A DNA stretch of 23,062 nucleotides, taken from IMG/VR virus record IMGVR_UViG_3300008459_007083, positions 1-23,062 of that record, one strand, 5' to 3'. The position numbers and the translations under genes were made by a program. This DNA is from a virus. Below the pieces are notes generated by a model, which was not told the origin of the DNA, did not search any database, and worked only from the letters and a program-made list of their open reading frames with translations. This document shows, one piece after another, positions 235-22,803 of the stretch. The stretch's first letter is position 1. Each line of letters starts with the position of its first letter.

Positions 235-1566
235 TTACTTGTTATTTGTTCCATAAAGACCGAAAGTATCCCTAACCAATTTCATTGAGGTATAAGATGC
301 CTCTGTATCAAAATGATGGCATAGTTCTTTAATCATATATAGACCACTTTGTTCCTTATCAAATTCATCCTTATCATCACTAGAAATTCTTGGAAATTTG
401 CAGGAAATAATATCACCCGCTCTTAAATTTGTATTGGATGGAACAATCATATTAACTGACTGGGTAAATAAAATATTATATCTCATAATTGCTTGAGATT
501 GATATTTTATTGGATCTGAATTTAAACTTGTTGATATGCCAGATTCAACCGTTCCAACATCTAAAATCTGAGTTAAAATTCTAGTAGGAACGTCTCCTAA
601 ATTAACATTACTACCACTAGATATTTTTGGAAGATCTAATTTTTTGCCTAGATTTTTTACTTGAGATGAATAGTTATCCAATTTAAACACCCCATCCTGT
701 TCTTTTGTAAATCCAAAAGTTAATGGATTATAAAACATCCTGTAACTAGAATATGTTCCGAGTCTTAATTTTTCTAAAAGATTTTGATTTCTTTGAGTAT
801 TATATTTTAAAATTTTAAAATCAGTATTAGATCCTATTCTATTCTCGTTAACTTGACTATAATAATATTCTGCTTTAGAAGAATCCATTATCAATTTGTC
901 AATAGATCGGAATTGGAATCCATCCTTAGTTTGAAAAAATACAAATCCTGCCGTAGCATCTTTCGATATATCAGGAACTCCTTTTGATGCTAACCACACT
1001 AATACTGTAAAAGGTTTTCTTAAATTCCCAATAAATCCGTAAGGATTTGAAGTTTTATCAATAGTGCCTATTCTGTTAGTTTGCAAATATTCACTAATAA
1101 TGCTTCTTACCGAAGTATCAATACTTGAAGTTGTTGGATATTTTTTTGCAACTCTAGAAGTCTCGTTAGTTATTGCTTCTCTAGAAACTAAATTGAGTAA
1201 AAAAGTTTCCCTATTTGTTTCTGAAATTACATCAGTAATACTTGAAACATACAAAGTATCTTTAGTAAAATTTAACCCTGGATTTTTATCAGTATTTCCT
1301 TTTATTTTCAACGATACTCTTTCACCGCCCCTCAAAGGTAAACCATTATAAATTGATTGCCTAGAACCATCCGCGCCACCAAGAGAATCTGATGCTTGAA
1401 TAGAATCACCAGTATTCACTACTCTAATTTTAGCAGTAATTGTAGGAGAAAAAATATCTTCATAGTAATCTATTGATACTGTACCACTTCTAATATCAAC
1501 AGTTTTACTTTGATTATTAGATTCGATAGTTAATTCTTCGTAAATTGACTTATCTATTGCTGCCAT
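235..1566 (-). CDS. Baseplate central hub protein, gp27-like
   Basis: A 443-residue protein with no signal peptide or membrane segment, rich in beta-strand-like and polar sequence, as expected of a virion structural protein. It lies directly upstream of gp5 in the same operon, and its ATG overlaps the stop of the preceding gene (TAATG). The length is close to T4 gp27 (391 residues), the trimeric hub ring that carries gp5. A middle segment (about residues 185-235, with LVWLASKGVPD, GFVFFQT and GFQFRSIDKL) resembles the hub proteins of the gp27 / Mu gp44 fold as I remember them from related phages. I infer the hub role from position, size and this resemblance; sequence identity to T4 gp27 itself is not obvious by eye. 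Confidence 0.65.
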   Translation of the reverse strand: MAAIDKSIYEELTIESNNQSKTVDIRSGTVSIDYYEDIFSPTITAKIRVVNTGDSIQASDSLGGADGSRQSIYNGLPLRGGERVSLKIKGNTDKNPGLNFTKDTLYVSSITDVISETNRETFLLNLVSREAITNETSRVAKKYPTTSSIDTSVRSIISEYLQTNRIGTIDKTSNPYGFIGNLRKPFTVLVWLASKGVPDISKDATAGFVFFQTKDGFQFRSIDKLIMDSSKAEYYYSQVNENRIGSNTDFKILKYNTQRNQNLLEKLRLGTYSSYRMFYNPLTFGFTKEQDGVFKLDNYSSQVKNLGKKLDLPKISSGSNVNLGDVPTRILTQILDVGTVESGISTSLNSDPIKYQSQAIMRYNILFTQSVNMIVPSNTNLRAGDIISCKFPRISSDDKDEFDKEQSGLYMIKELCHHFDTEASYTSMKLVRDTFGLYGTNNK

Positions 1567-3446
1567 TATGTGTATACCAGGTCTAAGAGTAACTTATTTT
1601 TTATAAAACTATTTAACGTCTGACCAACCACAATAACTTGTGGTTGCCCACCACCCCCACCACCAACAGGAATCATCTGTGGTGGTTTCCTATCATCAAT
1701 AACCACCATTTGCTGTCCTGGTTTGCTTGCCTGCTGAATTTGTTGGGTGGAAGTTGCTTGTGATGGTGAAGAAATTTGTGCTAAAGATGGTGCTGGTGGA
1801 GCAACTTGTGCTGGAGATGGAGCACCTGTTGGTTTTCCTGCAACTCCAGTAAGTTGTCTACCAATTGAAAGAAGACCAAGATATGGTTTTGGATCAATTG
1901 GCTTTCCTCCAGGTCTTGCCTCAAAATGCAAGTGAATGTCATAGTTACCACCACTCTTTCCAATTTCACCGATTGTTTGACCATTATACTGCTGTCCCTC
2001 TCTAACAAAAATGCTTGCTAGGTGTGCAAAATAAAATTCAATATTTCCAGATTTAATAATAACTAAATTTCCATATCCAGCACCATTATTTCTAGCATAA
2101 GTAACTTGTCCAGATTGCCTGAAAGAAACATAAAATCCCCTTTTCCCATAAGTTCCAATATCAATTCCGGCGTGAGATCTTGTAGAAGATCTATAAGCAC
2201 CAAAACCTTGTCCAGGAGTTAGACCACCTAAAGAACTCTTATTCATTGCAACATTTAATTCATCTTTTACAGTTGTTGAAACTGTTGGTGATGGAGAAGA
2301 TCTAGTATCAATATTTCTACCAGACTTAACTTGCTCCAAAGATTTTTTAACTTGTTGTGAAGTAATAGAACTACTTTGTCCGTCATGATAAAATTTTCCG
2401 GATGCATTTGGTAAAACTGCAAATTCTTGTGAAAGACCTTGCATAAATTGCTCTGTTGACATCTTCCCAGCCAACCATTGATTTCCTCCCCTATTCATTC
2501 CAATATTAACTTTTGCCGCTATTAAATCTTGATTTTCTGGACTATAAAGATCTTTGTCTGGATTCAATCCTGCTGCTTTTGCTCTACCAACTAAGTATTG
2601 TGGAAGTTGTTGATACTTTCCTACAGCACCGGTTGCTCTTCTAGCAACATCTGCAATAGTCATTTTCGTTGCACCAGGCAAAGTTGTGCTGGGATACATC
2701 GCTTCATAGTTTCCACCAGATTCTTTTGATGCAACTAAATCTAATAATGGTTTCCATTCTCCAGAAGAAGATGTTGTTCCTCCAGGAGGAGACTCATAAC
2801 TTGTCCCAAATGGAGCAGCATCTTGTCCAGTAACCACTCCCTCACTTAAAGTAGTAGTCATCAATTTCATACCTTCATCAAATTGACTTTGCATCTCCTC
2901 AAAATTGTTACCAAGTTCACTCAATGAACTTCTAACTCTATTCGATGTATCAAAAAAATCAAATGATATGACATTCTGGAAAACTGCACCCAATACTTTA
3001 CCAAACCCAGTAAATGTATCTAATACATTACCCATAAAAGATTTAAATATGGTTACCATTCTTTGAATTCTGGCAATCAATTCTGTTGCCATTGTTATAA
3101 TTGTTGGCAAATTATATGTCAACCATCCAAGTAAAAGTGAACCTAAGAAATCAAGTATTCTACTCAAAAATCCCTTTGCACCTTTAGTAATAGCATTTAT
3201 TGGTCTAAAAATAACTTCCCTAGCCTCGATTACATCTTCCTTTGCCTTTCTTTGAAAATATTCTTTCTTTCTGGCAAAAGATTTTTTATCTCCTTGTATT
3301 GCTTCTTTAGTGACTCTTGTTTTATTCAAGAGAACTTTTTTCATATCAACTGTAGTTTTTTTACTCTTATCTAATGAAGAAGAGAATGAAAAAAATCTAC
3401 TAGATATTTTGCGAAGATTTAAGAAAGACCCTGCTATAGTTGCCAT
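1566..3446 (-). CDS. Tape-measure-like tail protein with lysozyme-like and M23 peptidase domains
   Basis: A 626-residue protein in four parts. Residues 1-90 are basic and helical. Residues about 90-140 are a hydrophobic stretch (FLGSLLLGWLTYNLP) typical of tape-measure proteins. Residues about 228-350 look like a lytic transglycosylase/lysozyme domain: SKESGGNY with candidate catalytic Glu242, then GAVGKYQQLP and LYSPENQDLIA. Residues about 410-525 are an M23 (lysostaphin-type) endopeptidase with zinc ligands His425 and Asp429 (HxxxD), His475, and the HxH pair His505/His507. The last 100 residues are Pro/Gly/Gln-rich and end in a short hydrophobic tail. Such domains cut cell-wall glycan and peptide so that tail DNA delivery can pass the host murein. 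It is one base downstream of another tape-measure-like gene that it resembles, so it could be a hub protein instead of the ruler itself. Confidence 0.8.
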   Translation of the reverse strand: MATIAGSFLNLRKISSRFFSFSSSLDKSKKTTVDMKKVLLNKTRVTKEAIQGDKKSFARKKEYFQRKAKEDVIEAREVIFRPINAITKGAKGFLSRILDFLGSLLLGWLTYNLPTIITMATELIARIQRMVTIFKSFMGNVLDTFTGFGKVLGAVFQNVISFDFFDTSNRVRSSLSELGNNFEEMQSQFDEGMKLMTTTLSEGVVTGQDAAPFGTSYESPPGGTTSSSGEWKPLLDLVASKESGGNYEAMYPSTTLPGATKMTIADVARRATGAVGKYQQLPQYLVGRAKAAGLNPDKDLYSPENQDLIAAKVNIGMNRGGNQWLAGKMSTEQFMQGLSQEFAVLPNASGKFYHDGQSSSITSQQVKKSLEQVKSGRNIDTRSSPSPTVSTTVKDELNVAMNKSSLGGLTPGQGFGAYRSSTRSHAGIDIGTYGKRGFYVSFRQSGQVTYARNNGAGYGNLVIIKSGNIEFYFAHLASIFVREGQQYNGQTIGEIGKSGGNYDIHLHFEARPGGKPIDPKPYLGLLSIGRQLTGVAGKPTGAPSPAQVAPPAPSLAQISSPSQATSTQQIQQASKPGQQMVVIDDRKPPQMIPVGGGGGGQPQVIVVGQTLNSFIKNKLLLDLVYT

Positions 3447-3447
3447 T

Positions 3448-5238
3448 TTATGTTACTATATTATAGCTTACTTGGGAATATAACAAATAAAAATTATCAG
3501 GATTTCCGGAAGATATGGATGGTACTTCGGAAGCTGCTCCACTTCTTTCAGACATTTGTGGCATTTGTGGTTGACCTCCACCAGAACTCATATACACTAC
3601 ATTTGGTTTTGCTTCTGGTTCTTGACCAATCGTGGGTGTTGAGGTTGGAATTCTTTGAGTTTGCGCAGGAGATATTGATGGGGATGAAGATGGTACTGAA
3701 GATATTTGTTCTGCCTGACCAGGAACTTTAGATTCTCTTTCTACACCTGGTATCGAAATTTCACCAAATTCTGCAGGTTTGCTAAAATCAACCGTCACCT
3801 CCTCCGAAGGTGTTTCTTTATTGGGATTAAATGAAAACTCCATAGGAGGAGGAACCATATTTACAGATGGTGCAGTAACAGGGGTGGGTGGAGGACTACT
3901 TACTTGTGGGGGAGGAATAACTGGTGAAGTTGGAGTAACATTAACAGGTGATGGATTAGTAGTAGAAGGTGTCGATGAAGGAGGAGGAGGAGAAGTAGTT
4001 GTAGTAGTAGGAGTAATAGGTCGAGAAATACTAGAAGAAGTAGCAGGTTCATTTGGATTTTTCCCCAAAAGATTACCCCCAAACATTTCTGAAACTGCAT
4101 CAAGAGTGTAGGCAGCAGCAAAGGGAATTTTAAGTGCTCCTGGAGCAAAAAGTGCTCCTGCAGAAACCGCTGCATCTACATTTTGACCACTGGCAAGATC
4201 CATAACGCCACTAGCACCAGTAAAGAATTTTGATATGCCACCAAGAAACCCCCCACCAGGTTTTCCTCCAGCGGTAGGTGGTTTTCCTCCAGCAGCGGCA
4301 CCAGCACCAGCAGCCCCTACACCAGCGGCTGCCGCTGCTGCTGGAACTTTTCCAATATTTAATAATCCTTTAGCAGCATTACCAAGGAGTCCAAAAAATT
4401 TACCAATAGTATTCTTTAAGAGAAAACTACCAACACTAAGTGATAATGATGCAATTGTTCGGGAAATTGCTAAAAATCCACCATTAAGTAATAATAAAAT
4501 GCCACCAACAATTGCAAGATTTTTTAGGACTGAATTTTTAATGTTTTCTAATTTTTCAGTATTACCACTAGAAAGAGCTCTAAAAGTTTCTATAGCTTTA
4601 TCAAATAACCACCCAGAAAATAATATAGTAAAAAATTCCATTACTCTACCAAGAGTAAATTGCACTCTTTGACCAATAGCTTGTATTGGTGCCATTAATG
4701 CCGAAACAATCTTTTTCTCTATTAAATTTTCTTTATCTGTCCTATATTGTTGTTCTGCCTCTCTATTTTGTAAAACTTTTTCTTCTAATTCCTTTTTTTG
4801 CTCTAAATTTGAATCGGAAATAAGTGCAGTTTTTACTCCCAATAATTGATTCCCTAAATCAACTACTTTAGTCTGTAAAACTTGAAATTGATTTTGTAGT
4901 GTTCCAATAATGTTATTGTTTAGTGCTAATTGCTGCTCGTCTCTAGTAGTAAGTGCATTTATCTGCTTTTGCAGAGAAGAAACTAAATTTGGATCTACTT
5001 GTGGGGTTTGTGCAGTTGGAACTAACTCTGAAGAATCTATAGCCCTAGTCAAGGGAACAATTGCACCCCCTCTACCACCACCCGCACCTCCACGATTTCC
5101 AGTAAATTTGGAACTAGAAATTCTGGTAATTCTACCTAAACCAAAATTTCTTAAACTAATTCTTTCAGAAGACGTGTAGTATCCACCTTCAGGCTTTTCA
5201 CCAGTTTGAGATCTTTCTAGTGCTTCTTGCCTATCCAT
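3448..5238 (-). CDS. Tape-measure-like tail protein (possible gp29 counterpart)
   Basis: A 596-residue protein. Residues 50-60 are glycine-rich; about 85-175 are a heptad-like, Gln/Glu/Lys-rich region likely to form a coiled coil; 190-290 hold several hydrophobic segments (LAIVGGILLLLNGGFLAI is the clearest); 297-330 are Ala/Gly-rich; and 395-545 are almost entirely Pro, Ser and Thr. Length is close to T4 gp29 (590 residues), the tape-measure/hub protein, and the gene sits directly after gp26 and its frameshift partner, where tailed phages put the tape measure. Its ATG overlaps the 57-codon ORF's stop by eight bases, suggesting translational coupling. No enzymatic domain is visible. The Pro/Ser/Thr stretch gives tandem triplet-like DNA at 3950-4030, which is coding, not a separate repeat element. 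Function is inferred from context and composition. Confidence 0.65.
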   Translation of the reverse strand: MDRQEALERSQTGEKPEGGYYTSSERISLRNFGLGRITRISSSKFTGNRGGAGGGRGGAIVPLTRAIDSSELVPTAQTPQVDPNLVSSLQKQINALTTRDEQQLALNNNIIGTLQNQFQVLQTKVVDLGNQLLGVKTALISDSNLEQKKELEEKVLQNREAEQQYRTDKENLIEKKIVSALMAPIQAIGQRVQFTLGRVMEFFTILFSGWLFDKAIETFRALSSGNTEKLENIKNSVLKNLAIVGGILLLLNGGFLAISRTIASLSLSVGSFLLKNTIGKFFGLLGNAAKGLLNIGKVPAAAAAAGVGAAGAGAAAGGKPPTAGGKPGGGFLGGISKFFTGASGVMDLASGQNVDAAVSAGALFAPGALKIPFAAAYTLDAVSEMFGGNLLGKNPNEPATSSSISRPITPTTTTTSPPPPSSTPSTTNPSPVNVTPTSPVIPPPQVSSPPPTPVTAPSVNMVPPPMEFSFNPNKETPSEEVTVDFSKPAEFGEISIPGVERESKVPGQAEQISSVPSSSPSISPAQTQRIPTSTPTIGQEPEAKPNVVYMSSGGGQPQMPQMSERSGAASEVPSISSGNPDNFYLLYSQVSYNIVT

Positions 5239-5404
5239 TCGCCTGCTGCTTTAGTTTTTCTTCCTCAAGATGATTATGTAAAAGAGATATATAGATTTCT
5301 CTTTCCCAAGGAATCATATTTTCTAACTCTGTCAAGCTATATTTATGATACTGCATCAAGGCAAAATTTGTCTTATAGTATGACGCAATATCTTCATGCG
5401 CCAT
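5231..5404 (-). CDS. 57-codon ORF, candidate -1 frameshift extension of gp26 (tail assembly chaperone type)
   Basis: The 57-residue translation begins MAHEDIASYYKTNF and has a helical, acidic body (SLTELENMIPWEREIYISLL, then HLEEEKLKQQ). The ORF is open upstream of its ATG into the end of gp26, in the -1 frame. A slip at 5413-5419 would read Arg-Val-Gly and then this ORF, giving a fusion of about 298 residues. The ATG (5404) has little sign of a ribosome-binding site; the preceding bases GCGTAGGT overlap gp26's stop. The position, between gp26 and the tape-measure genes, is that of the T part of G/GT-type tail chaperones. Independent initiation at the ATG is the alternative. T4 has gp51 beside gp26, but I see no basis to equate the two. 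Confidence 0.75.
   Translation of the reverse strand: MAHEDIASYYKTNFALMQYHKYSLTELENMIPWEREIYISLLHNHLEEEKLKQQANG
5340..5347 (-). promoter_or_regulatory. Possible T4-type late promoter before the tape-measure genes
   Basis: The minus strand reads CATAAATA, a match to the NATAAATA core of T4-like late promoters. It lies inside the 57-codon ORF, about 100 bases before the first tape-measure gene's start. AT-rich coding DNA produces this motif by chance, so the call is weak. Confidence 0.25.
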
Positions 5405-5419
5405 ACCTACGCGAAAAAA
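5377..5419 (-). promoter_or_regulatory. Programmed -1 ribosomal frameshift signal at the end of gp26
   Basis: On the minus strand, gp26 ends TCT TTT TTC GCG TAG. Bases 5419-5413 form the heptamer T TTT TTC, a canonical X XXY YYZ slippery site in the zero frame. Five bases (GCGTA) separate it from an 11-bp stem: 5407-5397 (GGTATGGCGCA) pairs with 5387-5377 (TGCGTCATACT), with two G-U pairs and a nine-base loop. The 5-base spacing is in the usual range for -1 stimulators. The -1 frame leads directly into the 57-codon ORF. All elements are read from the sequence; that slipping happens is inferred. Confidence 0.75.
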
Positions 5420-6126
5420 GATGTCAAGCCCTCAAGAACAACATCACTTTCAACACCAGTTTTTGGGTTCTTAACAGTCAAGGTATGGGAAAGTTTAGGC
5501 ATTGTTTCAAAAAACTTTTCAATTTCTTTAAACTGATTTGATGTAAGTTGCTCAATAAATTCACTCAATTCCTTCTTAGTGCAATCAGAAGCTGCCCAAG
5601 ATTCTTCTTCACTATAAACCTGTTCTATACAAGAACATATTAAATCGAAAGTATTTGTTACTGATAGAGTTTCACCAACTTCAAAATTATTTTTAATAAA
5701 CTCATTCATTGATGGATACTTCATTCTCATAGAAAGATTATCATCTAGTTTAATATCTTTAGTATGATCTGGAGAAGTTTGAACTTGAATGTCGTCCAAA
5801 TTGATAGTCATAGGAACTTGTGTTTGACCATCATCCGGACAAGTAATTAGGACATCAACCGTCTCTCCTACAGACTTTCCTCTGATATTTAAGAATAAGT
5901 ACTCAATATCAAAAGTAGATAACTCATCTACTTTAATACCTTTACTCAAAATACAATTTGAGATTACAGTTTTGACTGCGTTTGCAATTTGCTTAGTATC
6001 CTCACTTTCCATTGCGATAATGAGAACCTTTTCTTCTTTGACTAAAAAGGGTCTATATCTAATCTTTTTTTGTAATGAAGGAACTTCCAATTCATAAATT
6101 GGTGTAGAAATCTTTGGTAATGGCAT
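5407..6126 (-). CDS. 26: Baseplate hub assembly protein gp26
   Basis: A 239-residue protein of the T4 gp26 / T4_baseplate family (T4 gp26 has 208 residues), which acts in assembly of the baseplate hub. It starts MPLPKISTPIYELEVPS and continues into a basic/hydrophobic stretch with RPFLVKEEKVLIIAMES, then the segment DIEYLFLNIRGKSVGE, all characteristic of the family; a Cys-Pro-Asp-Asp turn follows (CPDDGQT). The body is cytoplasmic-type with no membrane segment. AGG sits about eight bases before the ATG. The C-terminus (LTSFFA) is written over the slippery heptamer described at 5413-5419, so a fraction of product may be extended by the downstream ORF. Family identity is firm; the chaperone-like behaviour is inference from that frameshift layout. 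Confidence 0.85.
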   Translation of the reverse strand: MPLPKISTPIYELEVPSLQKKIRYRPFLVKEEKVLIIAMESEDTKQIANAVKTVISNCILSKGIKVDELSTFDIEYLFLNIRGKSVGETVDVLITCPDDGQTQVPMTINLDDIQVQTSPDHTKDIKLDDNLSMRMKYPSMNEFIKNNFEVGETLSVTNTFDLICSCIEQVYSEEESWAASDCTKKELSEFIEQLTSNQFKEIEKFFETMPKLSHTLTVKNPKTGVESDVVLEGLTSFFA

Positions 6127-6149: not shown

Positions 6150-6156
6150 TATTTAG
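6150..6156 (-). promoter_or_regulatory. CTAAATA element overlapping the gp54-like stop codon, 24 bases before gp26
   Basis: The minus strand reads CTAAATA, differing in one base from the ATAAATA core of T4-type late promoters. The TAA in it is the stop codon of the upstream gene, and gp26 begins 24 bases on. The same arrangement occurs after thyX at 13251-13257. Promoter activity is inferred from recurrence and spacing only. Confidence 0.35.
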
Positions 6157-6923
6157 AATGTGAAATTAGTACTATTTGGATCATATGCAAACGTAACTTT
6201 TGCATTCGCATCTAAAAAGTAACTATTGCTTGACTGATTTTGTTGGTTCGGTTGAGTTTGATCCTTATTATTATCAGAATTTCTGTTTATATCCGCACTA
6301 GTAACTTTCCCACAAACATACCTATCATAATTAAAAGTAACACTAATTGTTAATGTACTACTACCCTCATAAGAAACTGATGGAGAAGCAACTGCTAAAG
6401 GAAATAACCCATAAAAATTATACTCAATCGGATTTGAATAATCTTTGTTAAATTTTATAATTTTTGTAGAATCGCATTTATAACCAGAATCAACATCAGA
6501 TGGATACTGCATTCTATAAAAATATCCAGGAGTTGCAGGATTTAATGCACTGTTTGATATATCAGAAGATCCGGATGCAATATATTCTGTCCAGTGCTCT
6601 AAAAATTTTACCATTTTATACTTATGATCTACATAAAAAGACAGATCAATTGGGTTAAACATTTTAGTGTGAGCAAATTTTTCCATCACACCAGTATAAC
6701 TGCCCTTCAAATCCATAGTGGCAAATGAACTAGTTGGTAAAGAAGCAGAATAACACATTAAACCAGCGTCCTCAGTAATAAAACGATAATCCACGTTTCT
6801 TAAGGACAAATATCTTCTTAAATTTGCAGATAGACCACCAAAACTAACCTGATATTGTGAAGTTTGAGCTAAATTAAATATAGGTTTAATATCACTTATT
6901 CGTTTTGGTTTGATTATAGCCAC
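6153..6923 (-). CDS. 54: Tail-tube-like baseplate protein, probably tail tube initiator gp54
   Basis: A structural protein of 256 residues if it starts at the GTG at 6923-6921 (VAIIKPKRISDIK...). A longer frame exists but would overlap the divergent gp4 gene and adds an unlikely hydrophobic leader (FSFICHYTYSIVLL), so the GTG is preferred. The body has the tail-tube-type pattern: CYSASLPTSSF, then DLKGSYTGV, FAHTKMFNPIDLSFYVD, KFLEHWTEYI, and late beta segments (TLTISVTFNYDRYV). These are shared by phage tail tube, gp48 and gp54 proteins. Because gp48 is recognisable elsewhere in the window, gp54, which in T4 starts tube polymerisation on the baseplate, is the best match; T4 gp54 has 320 residues. 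Its stop (TAA) is part of a CTAAATA element before gp26. Confidence 0.6.
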   Translation of the reverse strand: MAIIKPKRISDIKPIFNLAQTSQYQVSFGGLSANLRRYLSLRNVDYRFITEDAGLMCYSASLPTSSFATMDLKGSYTGVMEKFAHTKMFNPIDLSFYVDHKYKMVKFLEHWTEYIASGSSDISNSALNPATPGYFYRMQYPSDVDSGYKCDSTKIIKFNKDYSNPIEYNFYGLFPLAVASPSVSYEGSSTLTISVTFNYDRYVCGKVTSADINRNSDNNKDQTQPNQQNQSSNSYFLDANAKVTFAYDPNSTNFTF

Positions 6924-6924
6924 T

Positions 6925-6931
6925 CTAAATA
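6925..6931 (+). promoter_or_regulatory. CTAAATA element in the divergent gp54/gp4 intergenic region
   Basis: The 36 bases between the divergent genes carry CTAAATATTT on the plus strand, 29 bases before the gp4 start. It resembles a T4-type late -10 element. The rest of the gap is plain AT-rich sequence (CTATACTATATGTATA) with no clear -35, in keeping with late promoters, which need none. Another copy, at 7787-7793, lies 18 bases before gp48. Confidence 0.4.
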
Positions 6932-6959
6932 TTTTTAATAGAACTATACTATATGTATA

Positions 6960-7397
6960 ATGGCATATAAAGGAAAATACCAACCATCAAATTCAAAAAA
7001 ATATAAAGGCGACCCTACAAATATCGTTTATAGATCTTTGTGGGAAAGAAAATTTATGGTTTATTGTGACAAAAATGAAAATGTTCTTGAATGGGGAAGT
7101 GAGGAAATTGCTCTCCCATATCGTTCTCCAATTGATGGAAGAGTTCATAGATATTTTCCAGATTTTTATATTAAAGTTCGAGAAAGCACCGGTCAAATTA
7201 AAAAATATATTATAGAAATTAAACCAAAAAAACAAACAGTAGAACCGAAAATTCCTAAGAGAAAAACCAAAGGATATATTTACGAGGTTGTTGAGTATGC
7301 CAAAAACCAGGCAAAATGGAAGGCAGCTCAAGAATTTTGTGAAGATAGGATGTGGGAATTCAAAGTTCTTACTGAGGATGAATTAGGTATAAACTAA
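6960..7397 (+). CDS. 4: Head completion protein gp4 (TnsA-like nuclease fold)
   Basis: A 145-residue protein, close to T4 gp4 (150 residues), which acts on filled heads before tail joining. It carries the family's conserved run: YRSLWERKF (about residues 24-32), then VLEWGSEEI, PYRSP, and HRYFPDFYI (about 58-67), with a later IIEIKPK. The Glu/Asp plus E-x-K arrangement (FPDF...EIKPK) is that of a restriction-endonuclease-like fold, as in TnsA. Whether it cleaves DNA is not shown by the sequence. It leads the plus-strand block and its stop overlaps the next ATG (TAATG), implying coupled translation. Family assignment is strong. Confidence 0.85.
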   Translation: MAYKGKYQPSNSKKYKGDPTNIVYRSLWERKFMVYCDKNENVLEWGSEEIALPYRSPIDGRVHRYFPDFYIKVRESTGQIKKYIIEIKPKKQTVEPKIPKRKTKGYIYEVVEYAKNQAKWKAAQEFCEDRMWEFKVLTEDELGIN

Positions 7398-16836: not shown

Positions 16837-19773
16837 TCATTCATTGAAAATATAAATCATAAATTCACAAGTATAAGTATCAATAAAATTATCATCAAAT
16901 ATCTTATCCTTAATATCTAATGAATTTCCCCAAGAAATATTTTGACGAGTACAAGACATAACTTTATAATTTTTAAATTGAGACAGGCAGTTATTCCTAA
17001 AGGTTTTAAACTTATCCCTACAACCCTGATAATTAAGATGAACTTCCATAGCAATAAACTTGACATTATTAAGTAAGAAGTCCATATTTTCTTCTGTGAA
17101 AATACTATATTCCCCACCTTCACAATCAACCTTCATATAATCAACATAATTGATTGAATATTTTTCAATCATATTCTTAAAAGTTATTCCTGTAAATTCT
17201 TCGTCGCCACCAAAGATATTAATTTTATCAATCTCATCTCCAACAATCGCACTATTAATATAGGTTAATGGATTTTCGGAATAATCAAATACCTTCTCGG
17301 AGCAGTTCTTTGAAAGTACCTTTAGTAACCTTTTAGAAGGTTCCACACAATAAACTTTTTTTGGTTTCTGATCTAAGATTGAAATAGTATAAGCACCAAC
17401 ACTGGCACCGATATCTAAAACTACATCACCTTCCTTAACATCATTCCAAAATCTATAAACTTTCTCGTGAATAATTTCTCTTTCTATAGTCACAATATCT
17501 TCATAAGTCAAAGTTGACCAATCAAAATCTTGAGAATAGTTGAAAGAATGATTACTAGGTTTTGCCGAATTTACCGGAACATTTCCACCTACAACTTTTA
17601 TCGTTTCACAGATTACATTATAATCATATTCTGATATTTGATAATTGGAAGTGATATCCTGAAGTAATTCTCTAGATTCTTCCGTCTTTCCCCACCACCA
17701 GGCAGCAATAGATTTTTCATAAAGAAGTCCATATTTACCAGGATATGCAACATCAGTTCTTAATGCTGGCAAATCAAAATTACAGTGCCTAATACCAAGA
17801 TCAGCAGTGATATAACAATCTTGCCACCATTGCTTTTTTTCGGCATAGCGACTTAAAAGATAATATGCTTCTGGGCGATCAGGTCTAAATGCCTGTGCCT
17901 GAAACAACATTCCTCTAGAACTTCCATCTCGTTCCCCTTGCTTTTCATAACAATAGGAACCACGAATGAGAGCCTCATACGCAAGATCTTTATCATCTGC
18001 TCTTTCGGCACATCTTAAAAAGTATGAAAGTGCAGGAGCAGTATGCCCCTCTTTCTCATACCAAAGTCCAAGAGAAAAATTATATTCGGCATTTTCAGTA
18101 TCCAAAGAATACTGAGTTAGAAGTTCTTCAATCTCAGTTTTTTGTGTCAGAGTTTCTTTTCTATTTACTTTTCCTTTATTTTTCCAATATTCTATAACAA
18201 GTTCTTTTGACTTTCTATGATTTGTTTTTTGCCCATCACTAACATCATCATCTTCGTTTTCAAAAGTTGACTTAAAATCAATATTCTCAACAAAAAGGGG
18301 AATGGTATATGTTTTACCAAGAGAAGTAAATAAAATATTCTCAATCAGAGGCATAACATCAGCACTAGGAAGTTCTAAGTGATAAGTATCATCAATAATA
18401 TATGTGTCAATTATTTTTTTAGCATAATCCCTAGTAAGAATATATGCTGTTGCACCCCAATCATCCCAATACCTTTCTCTCAATGCAAAGGTATCATAAC
18501 TTCCACGGATTGTAAATAACTGAACACACTCAGCATCTTTAGGTAAAGAATCTACAAATTCTTTCCAAGTGAAATTCCAGTGCTGAACAGTATCCAGACT
18601 CAAATCATCTTCACAGAAAAATCCATACTCCTCATCTGTAGTTTCATACCAATCCTTAATTGCTTTTAGATGTGAAACGCAACACCCTTTCGTACCGTCA
18701 TTTAAAGTATCAAGATATTTACCCGTTAATTTATCATCACAATCAGAAAACTTTTTTGAAATTATGGACCTTGGAGATATCCCATATTTTGAAAATTGTC
18801 CTTCCAACTCTTCCCTTCTATCAGAACATTCTTCAAGACTTACATAATACGGTGTAGGAAATCCTTTTAATTTATCTTCTTGTTCTTCCAATTCAATTTC
18901 CTCTGCAAAATAATTTTGGTCATCCATTTGAATAATTTTCCAATTTGTCTTTGGTTTTATGTAAGTCTTTTTGTTTTCCCCAATAATTTTTTGATTTAAC
19001 TTAGTATGAGTTTGAGAAATGAAATATTCAGCTTGCCATTTATCATTACCATCATTAAAAGAATTTATCCACTGACTTTGACTTCCTTCCCCATCATCAG
19101 AATAAAATCCTTCAAAATTTTCAACTCTTTTTGTATCTGCGTGTGGGAGATGAATCATATTATGATCGCAATCTATTTTTTTATGATTCAATCCCAAATT
19201 TTCCAATCGTTCATAGAGTTCGCTATCTTCAAAGGCATAATATTTTCCAAGATTTTCGTTGTATCCTCCAATCTTTTCAAAATTTTCCTTAGTAATAAAT
19301 AAAAGACCAGTAAGGTATTTGAAATAAGGACTATAAGAAGTAAAATATTCTCTTAGTTGCTCAGTACTCATTTCTTGCTTATCAATCATATAAGTATCAG
19401 TTTTCTCATCATAAAATTCTGGACTGGTATAATTATGAATACCGGAGGTAAATTCATTTTCACCGGGAAAATATTTTTCAATAAACTTATAATATGGATT
19501 AATCACATAATCAGTATCAAGTTTAAGAATATAGTCTCCAGTAGCAAGACTCGCAGCAAGATTTAATGGTTGTGGTTGATTAAAATATTTTTTATTCTGA
19601 ACAGTTACAATTTTAATTCTTGGATCTAAACTCGTAAAAGAATTAAGTGGTTCATCCGAACTCCAATCTACAACAATAATCTCAGATATTTCTTTAAAAT
19701 TTAACCAAGAATTCAAAGATACTCGAAGTGCAGAATTACGATTTTTGCAGGCACAAATAATAGAAATACTCAT
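16837..19773 (-). CDS. Multidomain glycan enzyme: GT2, GT25-like, TPR-like region and FkbM methyltransferase
   Basis: A 978-residue protein with four parts. Residues 1-230: GT2-type glycosyltransferase with SIICACKNR at the start, DTD at 86-88, and FEDSEL with the catalytic-type acid (Glu182/Asp183). About 305-500: GT25-like domain (YYVSLEECSDRREEL, GCCVSHLKAI, FFCEDDLSL with Glu388-Asp390, and WGATAYILTRDYA). About 555-715: helical tetratricopeptide-like repeats (LGLWYEKEGHTAPALSYF, RPDRPEAYYLLSRYAE). About 750-978: FkbM-type SAM methyltransferase with VLDIGASVGAY (785-795), EP at 811-812 and KVDCEGGEY (881-889). It is the last and largest gene of the glycan cassette, cytoplasmic with no membrane anchor. 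Substrates cannot be read from the sequence. Confidence 0.85.
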   Translation of the reverse strand: MSISIICACKNRNSALRVSLNSWLNFKEISEIIVVDWSSDEPLNSFTSLDPRIKIVTVQNKKYFNQPQPLNLAASLATGDYILKLDTDYVINPYYKFIEKYFPGENEFTSGIHNYTSPEFYDEKTDTYMIDKQEMSTEQLREYFTSYSPYFKYLTGLLFITKENFEKIGGYNENLGKYYAFEDSELYERLENLGLNHKKIDCDHNMIHLPHADTKRVENFEGFYSDDGEGSQSQWINSFNDGNDKWQAEYFISQTHTKLNQKIIGENKKTYIKPKTNWKIIQMDDQNYFAEEIELEEQEDKLKGFPTPYYVSLEECSDRREELEGQFSKYGISPRSIISKKFSDCDDKLTGKYLDTLNDGTKGCCVSHLKAIKDWYETTDEEYGFFCEDDLSLDTVQHWNFTWKEFVDSLPKDAECVQLFTIRGSYDTFALRERYWDDWGATAYILTRDYAKKIIDTYIIDDTYHLELPSADVMPLIENILFTSLGKTYTIPLFVENIDFKSTFENEDDDVSDGQKTNHRKSKELVIEYWKNKGKVNRKETLTQKTEIEELLTQYSLDTENAEYNFSLGLWYEKEGHTAPALSYFLRCAERADDKDLAYEALIRGSYCYEKQGERDGSSRGMLFQAQAFRPDRPEAYYLLSRYAEKKQWWQDCYITADLGIRHCNFDLPALRTDVAYPGKYGLLYEKSIAAWWWGKTEESRELLQDITSNYQISEYDYNVICETIKVVGGNVPVNSAKPSNHSFNYSQDFDWSTLTYEDIVTIEREIIHEKVYRFWNDVKEGDVVLDIGASVGAYTISILDQKPKKVYCVEPSKRLLKVLSKNCSEKVFDYSENPLTYINSAIVGDEIDKINIFGGDEEFTGITFKNMIEKYSINYVDYMKVDCEGGEYSIFTEENMDFLLNNVKFIAMEVHLNYQGCRDKFKTFRNNCLSQFKNYKVMSCTRQNISWGNSLDIKDKIFDDNFIDTYTCEFMIYIFNE

Positions 19774-19810
19774 AAGTTATTTTTATAAAATTAAATCAAT
19801 GCTGTATATA

Positions 19811-20548
19811 TTAGAGAACAATCCAGTCCGAAAGATACAAATCTTTGGTATTCCAATTTGAAAATTCCCCACAAAACCAGTTTTTTGGTGCAATTGTTTT
19901 TTTACTTTTTGCCAACCACGATCCCCACCAGGAAAAGGATGAGTTTGAAATAATATGATAGTCACAGAGAGACATTAAACATAAGTCAACGAAGGGATCA
20001 TTAGAAGAAGAAAATTTAAATCTTTTTCCAACAAACTGTTCCCTACACCAATTTATATCATCACTTAAAACCATAATTTCTAAATCAGAAAAATATTTAA
20101 GTGCTTCTAAATAATAATCAAGTTCCAGTAAAATAAAATTAGGATCAGTTATATAATCTCCCCGTCGAACGTGAAGTGCCACGACTTCTTTTGAAAGAAT
20201 ATGTTTGCGATAGTGAGAACAACTATTGAATATTATATCATAAAATCTAAAATCTTTTCTAAGTTCTTCTTCAATATGAGAAAAATACTTTTCAGTTTGA
20301 AAGAATCCGTATAAATCTCCTTCAGAACAAGAAAAAATATTCTCATCAAATTCATATGATGTTTCTTTTATGGTCGGATAAAAAATTTCAGTGCCTTTCT
20401 TTGGAATCTGAAAGCATTTATGAAGTGAAGTATCTAATGGTAGGCAATAATCTGTTGAATTATGTGTCGCAATTCCTTTCAAAGCGGCATATTGGAACAT
20501 CTGATTTCCAAGTCTTCCAAGTGAGCCAAGATTACTAAATGATATCAT
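19811..20548 (-). CDS. Alpha-1,2-fucosyltransferase-like enzyme, GT11
   Basis: A 245-residue GT11-family glycosyltransferase. Motifs: GRLGNQMFQYAALKG near the N-terminus (about 11-25), HVRRGDY (about 126-132) for GDP-fucose binding, and SNSSFSWWGSWLA (about 200-212). GT11 enzymes transfer fucose from GDP-fucose, usually in alpha-1,2 linkage. I take the ATG at 20548; a GTG one codon earlier is equally possible. It overlaps the preceding methyltransferase by 14 bases, so the two are probably co-translated. Host GDP-fucose would be needed, because no GDP-fucose synthesis genes are visible here. Confidence 0.88.
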   Translation of the reverse strand: MISFSNLGSLGRLGNQMFQYAALKGIATHNSTDYCLPLDTSLHKCFQIPKKGTEIFYPTIKETSYEFDENIFSCSEGDLYGFFQTEKYFSHIEEELRKDFRFYDIIFNSCSHYRKHILSKEVVALHVRRGDYITDPNFILLELDYYLEALKYFSDLEIMVLSDDINWCREQFVGKRFKFSSSNDPFVDLCLMSLCDYHIISNSSFSWWGSWLAKSKKTIAPKNWFCGEFSNWNTKDLYLSDWIVL

Positions 20549-21197
20549 CACTTATAAAAATAGTATTAATATCATCTTTATAAATTTCGCTATAATTATA
20601 TTTTTCTATGTGATGCCTGAGATGCTTTACCTTGGTTACAATTTCTAGATTATCTGTGAAGTATGAGTGATTATCAACCAACTCCACAATTAACATCTTT
20701 GGTTTCCATTCATTAAGATTAAAAGAATAAAAGACTTCGTGTTCTTTTCCCTCAACATCAACAACCAACAAATCAAAATTATGAGGTACATTATATCTTT
20801 TTAAGAAAGTATCCATTCTTAATTGGTAGCAAATACTCTCACTATAATCTGGGTAATTAAACTTTGTTATTCCTAACTCGGCGTGTTCCTTATCAAGACT
20901 AGAAAGAATCCCATTACCATAAATTTTTTGAACTCCTTCTTCTGATCCTATTGAAAGATTCGCAACTATTACATTATTTTTTTTATGCCTATCCAAGCAC
21001 TTGAGATAATTTTCGTGTATTGGTTCAACATAAAATCCTCTCCATCCAGAATCTGCCAAACAAGAGGTGTTTGATACAGATTCCCCATCAAAAGCACCAA
21101 TCTCAACGAAAGTTCTATGATTAGAAAATAACCCAAAGTAATTTGTGTATATCTTATCTAAATCTTTTATCTGACAAGTTTCTGATAATTTGTACAT
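20535..21197 (-). CDS. FkbM-type methyltransferase
   Basis: A 220-residue SAM-dependent methyltransferase of the FkbM type. It has VEIGAFDGESVS (about 31-42) for SAM binding, YVEPIHENY (about 56-64), and LVVDVEGKEHEVF in the acidic motif (about 144-156). FkbM-type enzymes methylate hydroxyl groups of sugars or polyketides. A stop is shared in a 14-base overlap with the fucosyltransferase. Low third-position GC, like neighbours. It could also be an inactive paralogue, but the key acidic residues are present. Confidence 0.85.
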   Translation of the reverse strand: MYKLSETCQIKDLDKIYTNYFGLFSNHRTFVEIGAFDGESVSNTSCLADSGWRGFYVEPIHENYLKCLDRHKKNNVIVANLSIGSEEGVQKIYGNGILSSLDKEHAELGITKFNYPDYSESICYQLRMDTFLKRYNVPHNFDLLVVDVEGKEHEVFYSFNLNEWKPKMLIVELVDNHSYFTDNLEIVTKVKHLRHHIEKYNYSEIYKDDINTIFISDDII

Positions 21198-21202
21198 AAT
21201 GA

Positions 21203-21814
21203 TTATTTGATATAAAGTGCATCACCCCAAGGACCATCGTACCACCAAAAAGTTTCTACTCTTCTCATATTATAGTTTGATAGGTAATTATCAATCTCCT
21301 CAATATAAGCATTTCCTTCATAAACCTCATTACGATTAACTTCGCAATATAAGTAATCAATATTTTCTAGTGTTTTTTCTGCTCCTTTAAGAACCTCCAT
21401 TTCGTATCCTTGAACATCCAGATTAATGAAATTATAGTTTTTAAATAAAAAATCATCAAGTCTTTTCATTTCTACTGTCTCTTCACCAGAAAAAACTACC
21501 TCAGGATGTAAGTCCAAATGAATCTTTGGTTTCAGAACAGAACTACTTTCAAGATTATTACTACTTAAAAACATATTGACATTCTGATTTTTATTTCCCA
21601 GAGCAACGCAATGTCCGATAATATTTGCACTTGAATCAGAGACATTATTCTTTAATACCTCAAAGTTATTTTTTAGGGGTTCAAATAAAGCAATATCATC
21701 AATTCCAAGATTCACATAATTAGGTACTTCTTCCCCATAATGAGCGCCAATATGAATAACTCCAGATATATTCATATTATATTTTTTAATAAGTCCACTA
21801 AGTTCTAAAATCAT
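21203..21814 (-). CDS. FkbM-type methyltransferase
   Basis: A 203-residue SAM-dependent methyltransferase. GVIHIGAHYGEEVPNY (about 18-33) is the SAM-binding loop, LFEPLKNNF (about 43-51) the second-strand acid, and FINLDVQGYEMEVLKGAE (about 129-146) the FkbM acidic motif. It is only loosely similar to the 220-residue neighbour, so the pair are not a recent duplication. It starts at an ATGA overlap with the GH130-like gene. Probable target is a hydroxyl of a sugar made by the cassette; that is inference. Confidence 0.85.
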   Translation of the reverse strand: MILELSGLIKKYNMNISGVIHIGAHYGEEVPNYVNLGIDDIALFEPLKNNFEVLKNNVSDSSANIIGHCVALGNKNQNVNMFLSSNNLESSSVLKPKIHLDLHPEVVFSGEETVEMKRLDDFLFKNYNFINLDVQGYEMEVLKGAEKTLENIDYLYCEVNRNEVYEGNAYIEEIDNYLSNYNMRRVETFWWYDGPWGDALYIK

Positions 21815-22803
21815 TTAAAAACAAACTCCTCTACAAAACTCTTAGGAACTCTTACCAGATATGCTGCATTATCTTGATACCCGAAAGTAATCAGATAGTC
21901 ACCTTTATATTCTACCATACCCACGGCAAACTCAATCTCGGCATTCATAAATGAGAATTGCCTTGATATTTTAACAATATTCCAGTCCTTATCCCAGACA
22001 ACGAAACGATGACGATACACACCATCCTTTCTTCCTGCATCACTCTTTGTTAGGTAAGTTTCGTGTGTTAAACAGAACCTGTAGTTATCACCAAGAGGAA
22101 TAATCTGAGAACCACCACGAAGGTCAATTGTTCCCAAATCTATCCAATCTTTTTTTATAACAGTCTCTGTAGTATTAGTTTCAATATCATACTTCACAAT
22201 CTCGGTGCCATTCGTCCATTTCACATAGTGATACGGCATATCCAGAATTGGCATCCAGTTCTTGTTACAATACTCTTGGTCTGGTGGGGGAGAAGGAATA
22301 CGGTGTTGATTAACCTCTTTAACTCCACTTTCGGCAAATTCAATCTCCGAAAGTTCCATACGACCAGTTCCAATCGTATCTAAATCTCTTCTTACTCCTG
22401 TCGTGTAAAGTTTATCATTCCAACGAACAATACGGCAATCTTCCAGTCCGACAAATTCCCACAGTTCTTTATCAGGAAACTTTGAAGTATCGATGCGATG
22501 ATAAGATTTTATAGACATATCATCATTCATCTCGCACATAATATTCCAAGTGCGAAGACGAAGGTCACTCTCTGGATGAATATAAACCAGGGGCCCCCAA
22601 GGATGCTCAAACTTTCTCTTCTCCGAATGATAAAGAGTATAGTTAATATTTCTAAGATTTACCAGTAATTTATCACCATCAAGGTATATGGATGGGTTTG
22701 TAAGTGCTGGTCCTTTAATTTCGTTTGAAGGTATAATTAAAGGATGAATGCTTCCTTTATTCTGAATTGCAAGTTTTACAAAGTTCAGTTCATCAACTGC
22801 CAT
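21811..22803 (-). CDS. GH130-like five-bladed beta-propeller (glycoside phosphorylase/hydrolase relative)
   Basis: A 330-residue protein with the GH130 propeller pattern: NPSIYLDGDKLLVNLRN near residues 36-52, GLEDCRIVRWNDKLYTTG (about 119-136; the family usually has EDPRI), KNWMPI plus YHYVKW (about 180-195), and a late EIEFAVGMVEYKGDYLITFGYQD. GH130 enzymes are mannoside phosphorylases or hydrolases. The conserved Asp/Glu surroundings are visible but the change of the EDP motif to EDC makes catalysis uncertain. It is the first gene of the cassette, downstream of tandem promoters, with no clear ribosome-binding site. Third codon positions look more GC-rich than in the genes after it. Confidence 0.75.
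   Translation of the reverse strand: MAVDELNFVKLAIQNKGSIHPLIIPSNEIKGPALTNPSIYLDGDKLLVNLRNINYTLYHSEKRKFEHPWGPLVYIHPESDLRLRTWNIMCEMNDDMSIKSYHRIDTSKFPDKELWEFVGLEDCRIVRWNDKLYTTGVRRDLDTIGTGRMELSEIEFAESGVKEVNQHRIPSPPPDQEYCNKNWMPILDMPYHYVKWTNGTEIVKYDIETNTTETVIKKDWIDLGTIDLRGGSQIIPLGDNYRFCLTHETYLTKSDAGRKDGVYRHRFVVWDKDWNIVKISRQFSFMNAEIEFAVGMVEYKGDYLITFGYQDNAAYLVRVPKSFVEEFVFK

Follow-up and report, generated by a model that had tools for sequence, protein, structure and literature searches.

Near the tail genes of T4-like cyanophages lies a short open reading frame that public records list as a gene, and the question raised by the locus examined here is whether this frame is a gene at all or the end of its neighbour, gp26. 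In phage lambda, one tail assembly chaperone gene gives a short form and a -1-extended long form, G and GT (Levin 1993; Xu 2004, 2013, 2014, as cited in PMC5009743), and a 2016 review names T4 as the exception to a G-T frameshift that long-tailed phages otherwise widely conserve (PMC5009743). According to the PRFect paper, which cites Vladimirov et al. 2022, frameshifting is replaced in some T4-like phages by a pair of copies, a short one and a long fused one (PMC10885494). The product of T4 gene 51 has been called essential and of unknown function (PMC3004832). A preliminary description of the locus proposed a -1 frameshift joining gp26 to a 57-codon open reading frame and knew of no earlier account of one for gp26 of T4-like cyanophages; the extension is already annotated as gp51 in public cyanophages and, as reported by papers that cite it (PMC10885494, PMC12846349), a 2022 study dealt with the T4-like chaperone identity and poly-T slippery sites (Vladimirov, Gautam and Davidson, Virology 566:9). 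The chaperone identity and the T4 two-gene solution are thus already known, and the poly-T slip site probably is. In the literature examined, with Vladimirov et al. 2022 represented by its citing papers, neither the GAGGG upstream nor the covarying hairpin was described, and no counts like those of the survey below were given.

Survey of related loci

The window is the whole stretch of DNA analysed, 23,062 nucleotides of IMG/VR record IMGVR_UViG_3300008459_007083, from a T4-like cyanophage. A first scan of viral contigs gave 80 relatives of its gp26 locus, one of which (L004) lies on a contig that runs only 41 bases beyond the gp26 stop. When the search was widened to six further queries and to public phage records, the total rose to 229 distinct loci. 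Removal of a few T4-type loci and fragments and of two Ackermannviridae-like Vibrio phages left 221 extension-bearing loci, and loci of less than 90% identity served as 62 representatives.

Layout of the locus

The features of the locus, all on the minus strand, are as follows.

6153..6983 (-), gene for the tail tube protein, immediately 5' of gp26 (PF23849, 6.9e-14; phrog_45, 3.5e-37)
5407..6126 (-), gp26, short form of 239 aa (PF12322 T4_baseplate, phrog_150; putative TAC-N equivalent)
5429..5433 (-), GAGGG, putative frameshift stimulator resembling a Shine-Dalgarno sequence, with 9 nt between it and the heptamer
5413..5419 (-), T TTT TTC, slippery heptamer in phase with gp26 (zero frame; from sequence and conservation)
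5408..5412 (-), 5-nt spacer, taking in the T and A of the zero-frame stop TAG at 5409-5407
5397..5407 (-), 5' arm of a predicted 11-bp stem (fold and covariation)
5388..5396 (-), 9-nt loop (fold)
5377..5387 (-), 3' arm of the 11-bp stem (fold and covariation)
5231..5413 (-), -1 frame extension, 60 codons (RVG plus the 57-codon frame) and stop (phrog_634, cyanophage 'gp51'; putative TAC-NC equivalent)
3448..5238 (-), 596-aa open reading frame in the tape-measure position (position and length)

At the end of gp26 the minus strand reads GAG GGC TTG ACA TCT TTT TTC GCG TAG GT ATG G. The outer pair of the stem is G-U, with the third base of the gp26 stop as one partner. Translation of the -1 frame gives FF-RVG-MAHEDIASYYK.. 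and terminates at 5231, and its stop overlaps the ATG at 5238 of the 596-aa frame. The predicted products have 239 residues in the zero frame and 298 after a -1 shift. For the unshifted protein the predicted C-terminal peptide is TGVESDVVLEGLTSFFA; a -1 shift in the window sequence would give the junction peptide TGVESDVVLEGLTSFFR, and reinitiation would give the N-terminal peptide (M)AHEDIASYYK.

Most of this agrees with the preliminary description, which had placed the heptamer, the 5-base spacer and the stem with its nine-base loop (5407-5377) correctly to the base, had read the -1 frame as open through Arg-Val-Gly into the 57-codon frame and its stop as overlapping the start of the tape-measure candidate, and had given about 298 residues for the long form. 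It had described the signal as heptamer and stem only, and so had missed the GAGGG upstream.

The 596-aa frame had no family match and no similarity to the phiM12 tape-measure candidate; T4 gp29 has 590 aa, and the frame is a candidate tape-measure gene by position and length only. Just 3' of it, a 626-aa protein with an M23 peptidase domain is encoded (1566-3446, -), and a TnsA-like endonuclease domain protein (PF08722; 6960-7397, +) adjoins the tail tube gene on the opposite strand. Elsewhere the window holds an S-adenosylmethionine decarboxylase gene (PF02675; 14820-15146, -), a host-type metabolic gene in a phage, and a cluster of sugar-modifying genes (16837-22803, -) that comprises a fusion of glycosyltransferase and FkbM methyltransferase of 978 aa, a family 11 glycosyltransferase and two FkbM methyltransferases.

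Identity of gp26 and the extension

The gp26 protein matches PF12322 at 255 bits, against a curated cut-off of 24.5, and the extension matches phrog_634, 'baseplate hub assembly catalyst'. The extension is annotated as gp51 in S-PM2 and P-SSM2; in KJ019044 (L092, 2508-2687) it is unannotated, with a 180-nt gap before the next gene, and elsewhere it appears as a stand-alone gp51. In T4, gp26 and gp51 both match PF12322, and the C-terminus of gp51, in the same frame after the PF12322 domain, matches phrog_634; profile comparison aligned T4 gp51 residues 200-244 with the cyanophage -1 extension. The match of the 57-codon frame to T4 gp51 is confined to the C-terminal ~45-50 residues of the latter, and the frame is not, as a T4-type stand-alone gp51 is, a gene of its own with an in-frame N-terminal PF12322 domain. 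Genes 26 and 51 are divergent in T4 and in Aeromonas phage 25. By these matches the long form has its T4 counterpart in gp51, and the short form in gp26.

An AlphaFold model of the window gp26 (pLDDT 89.7) was compared with 909 PDB chains. The top three were RBSTP2171 (3FGX), HK97 gp13 (2OB9) and YqbN (3KLU), with Z of 8.0, 7.9 and 7.2 over gp26 residues 1-95 and 5.2 for the next chain; all three are tail assembly chaperones (PMC9603447). Z values of 7.2-8.0 may come from common arrangements, and what is specific in this comparison of a predicted model is that three chaperones ranked first. Foldseek alone placed 2OB9 at rank 3 with a weak E of 0.56. A gp26 profile search of the sequences of solved structures found no credible match, and an NCBIfam search returned nothing.

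Conservation of the heptamer and the open -1 frame

All 80 relatives of the first scan have TTTTTTC at the same position and an open -1 frame. In the wider set an in-frame slippery heptamer is present in 221/221 loci, as T TTT TTC in 210 and T TTT TTT in 11, and in every one the -1 frame is open beyond the gp26 stop. Given gp26 codon usage, the chance of this among the 62 representatives is P = 10^-61.6, a value which assumes independence although the loci are related; for the same reason the number of loci overstates the independent support. In the AT-rich window itself TTTTTTC is not unusual (18 found, 20.7 expected), and therefore the case rests on conservation. In S-H34-like cyanophages (L097-L107, L091, L093) the zero-frame stop abuts the heptamer (TTTTTTC TAG/TAA).

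The first alternative is that the 57-codon frame is a separate gene, gp51, translated by termination and reinitiation at an ATG just 3' of the gp26 stop. The window has such an ATG at 5404, 2 nt past the stop, an ATG falls within the first seven -1 codons in 69/81 near relatives, and public records list the extension as a gene. But in 65/221 loci no ATG, GTG or TTG occurs before codon 13 of the -1 frame, and one locus (L001) has no start before codon 28 of 62. Where the frame is without start codons the protein is nevertheless conserved (FFRxALxHxxLxNYY), and the conserved residues begin 5' of the ATG (FF-R-V/I/L). The GAGGG, 24 nt from the ATG, is too distant for a normal ribosome-binding site, and a separate gene leaves both the conserved heptamer and the fused T4 gp51 unexplained. 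We consider it very unlikely as the account of this frame, although some reinitiation could occur at the 5404 ATG, which is not constant among relatives but is present in most members of the window lineage.

A finding that would speak against a frameshift, a heptamer lost while the reading frame is kept, was named in the preliminary description, and it occurs in one distant lineage: in the two Ackermannviridae-like Vibrio phages (L086, 2498-3390; L087, 2483-3439) the extension frame is retained, the heptamer is missing and stop and ATG overlap as TAATG. This suggests, from sequence comparison, that stop-start reinitiation took over from frameshifting there; the other loci are not overturned by it.

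GAGGG and hairpin as putative stimulators

The -1 signal of E. coli dnaX consists of a Shine-Dalgarno-like sequence about 10 nt upstream, an A-rich heptamer and a downstream hairpin. The locus here has a comparable three-part arrangement, with GAGGG at 9 nt, heptamer and hairpin, of which the first and last are predicted stimulators; it differs in that the dnaX heptamer is A-rich and the gene and the purpose are other ones.

GAGGG is present in 142/221 loci. At this site the Glu codon is GAG in 51/62 representatives, compared with 77/258 of the other Glu-Gly pairs (Fisher 5e-14), and predicted pairing with the anti-Shine-Dalgarno sequence is stronger than in synonymous shuffles (z about -10.8). 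By these measures the synonymous sites of GAGGG are under selection; the element has its counterpart in E. coli dnaX and probably acts as a stimulator through pairing with the 16S anti-Shine-Dalgarno sequence.

The stem folds at -16 kcal/mol, with z = -5.3 for the 43 bases 3' of the heptamer and z = -2.2 over a longer stretch, and a folding-energy minimum lies at its position (-12 kcal/mol, versus about -4 nearby). Within the window lineage, stem covariation amounted to 30 double-change cells versus 9.8 when shuffled and 7-20 in slid controls, the compensatory changes being chiefly U-A, G-C and A-U swaps at pair 21-35. RNAalifold on the 40 nearest loci gave 9 pairs, 3 with compensatory changes; for all 62 representatives it found no common structure, owing to the presence of two kinds of hairpin among them. 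A downstream hairpin was found in the window lineage and in the S-H34-like lineage, and the fold signal is absent in the ACG-2014b-like and S13-scan groups. A universal hairpin was accordingly rejected, as it is absent or weak in several lineages. By its covariation the predicted 11-bp hairpin is kept in the window's own lineage and is lineage-specific. In the sub-lineage L067-L078 a short palindromic hairpin (such as GGTCC-ATAT-GGACC) stands in place of the 11-bp stem. An Rfam search returned nothing relevant. Of the conservation check that had been proposed, the heptamer, the -1 frame and, in the window lineage, compensating changes in the stem were borne out, and a hairpin common to all loci was not.

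These elements bear on a second alternative, in which RNA polymerase adds or drops bases on the six-T run and the edited mRNA is translated normally into the fusion. T runs are the type of sequence where transcriptional slippage can occur, and the product would be identical. The run, however, is no longer than six T plus C in 210/221 loci, and a heptamer exactly in zero-frame phase, a GAGGG and a covarying hairpin spaced 5 nt away suit ribosomal frameshifting, while slippage needs none of them; we regard it as highly improbable. Finally, a functionless heptamer, a by-product of the Phe-Phe pair that is invariant across the family in an AT-rich genome where TTTTTTC is common, can practically be dismissed, as other Phe-Phe pairs in gp26 genes are slippery in only 4/247 cases and T4-type gp26, which retains the pair, writes it as TTC TTT, without a slippery heptamer (GAG TTC TTT in T4).

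Discussion

Comparative evidence strongly supports a -1 frameshift, and gp26 and the 57-codon frame are very probably one tail assembly chaperone gene read in two ways. A shift of the lambda G/GT kind is favoured because the heptamer is conserved, the -1 frame is open, start codons are missing in many loci and the stem covaries in the window lineage, and because the gene order (tail tube, chaperone, tape-measure candidate) and the chaperone-like predicted fold agree with it; the chaperone reading of the preliminary description thus gained support.

The shift itself, its efficiency and its role in assembly are inferred. Most ribosomes would end at the gp26 stop and give the 239-aa short form. 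A minority would shift backwards by one base at T TTT TTC, when the Phe codons TTT and TTC occupy the P and A sites, and read 60 further residues, giving the 298-aa long form. Probable aids to the slip are the GAGGG upstream, through its pairing with the 16S anti-Shine-Dalgarno sequence, and, in the window lineage, the 11-bp hairpin downstream. If lambda G/GT is a guide, the tape measure protein may be coated by many copies of the short form, and the extension on the rarer long form may recruit tail tube subunits.

The slippery site of lambda is GGGAAAG. The phage here shares with lambda a short form paired with a (here predicted) -1-extended long form, the place of the gene between those for the tail tube and the tape measure (here a candidate), and a modelled short-form fold like those of the tail chaperones 2OB9, 3KLU and 3FGX; it differs in its T TTT TTC heptamer, its PF12322 family and longer short form (239 aa), a zero-frame stop right at the slip site, and the GAGGG upstream. 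Similarity to T4 lies in PF12322, common to gp26 and gp51, and in the gp51 C-terminus, homologous to the -1 extension; T4 has two divergent genes and no frameshift, whereas the phage here would obtain both forms from one gene. Pakpunavirus Adele, and with it Vandenendeviridae and Andersonviridae, are described as having a chaperone frameshift on a GTTTTT motif (PMC12846349). There too a -1 shift is described on a T run ending a short chaperone gene, with the extension misannotated as a separate gene; the phage families are other ones, and the section on this frameshift describes no upstream Shine-Dalgarno-like element or hairpin.

A wider reading, to which we give roughly even chances as a whole, is that both tail chaperones of T4-like phages and their kin (cyanophages, KVP40-like, Aeromonas Ah1-like, Rhizobium and Stenotrophomonas phages) came originally, and for the most part still come, from a -1 frameshift. 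It includes a three-part, dnaX-like signal with swappable hairpins, a later duplication as the origin of the T4 two-gene arrangement, and a move of the Ackermannviridae-like branch to stop-start reinitiation, so that one two-form protein would have three expression solutions.

The T4 exception of the 2016 review (PMC5009743) here covers the sampled T4-type loci; other T4-like loci carry the heptamer, and most sampled T4-like relatives can obtain both forms from one gene. The results support the view that T4 gene 51 encodes the long version of the gp26 tail chaperone. Over 400 cyanophage records match, and many marine phage genomes probably hold a wrong gene model, because public records either omit the extension or give it a 57-aa gene of its own. 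Comparing one-gene with two-gene phages offers a direct way to ask what makes the ratio of short to long form important.
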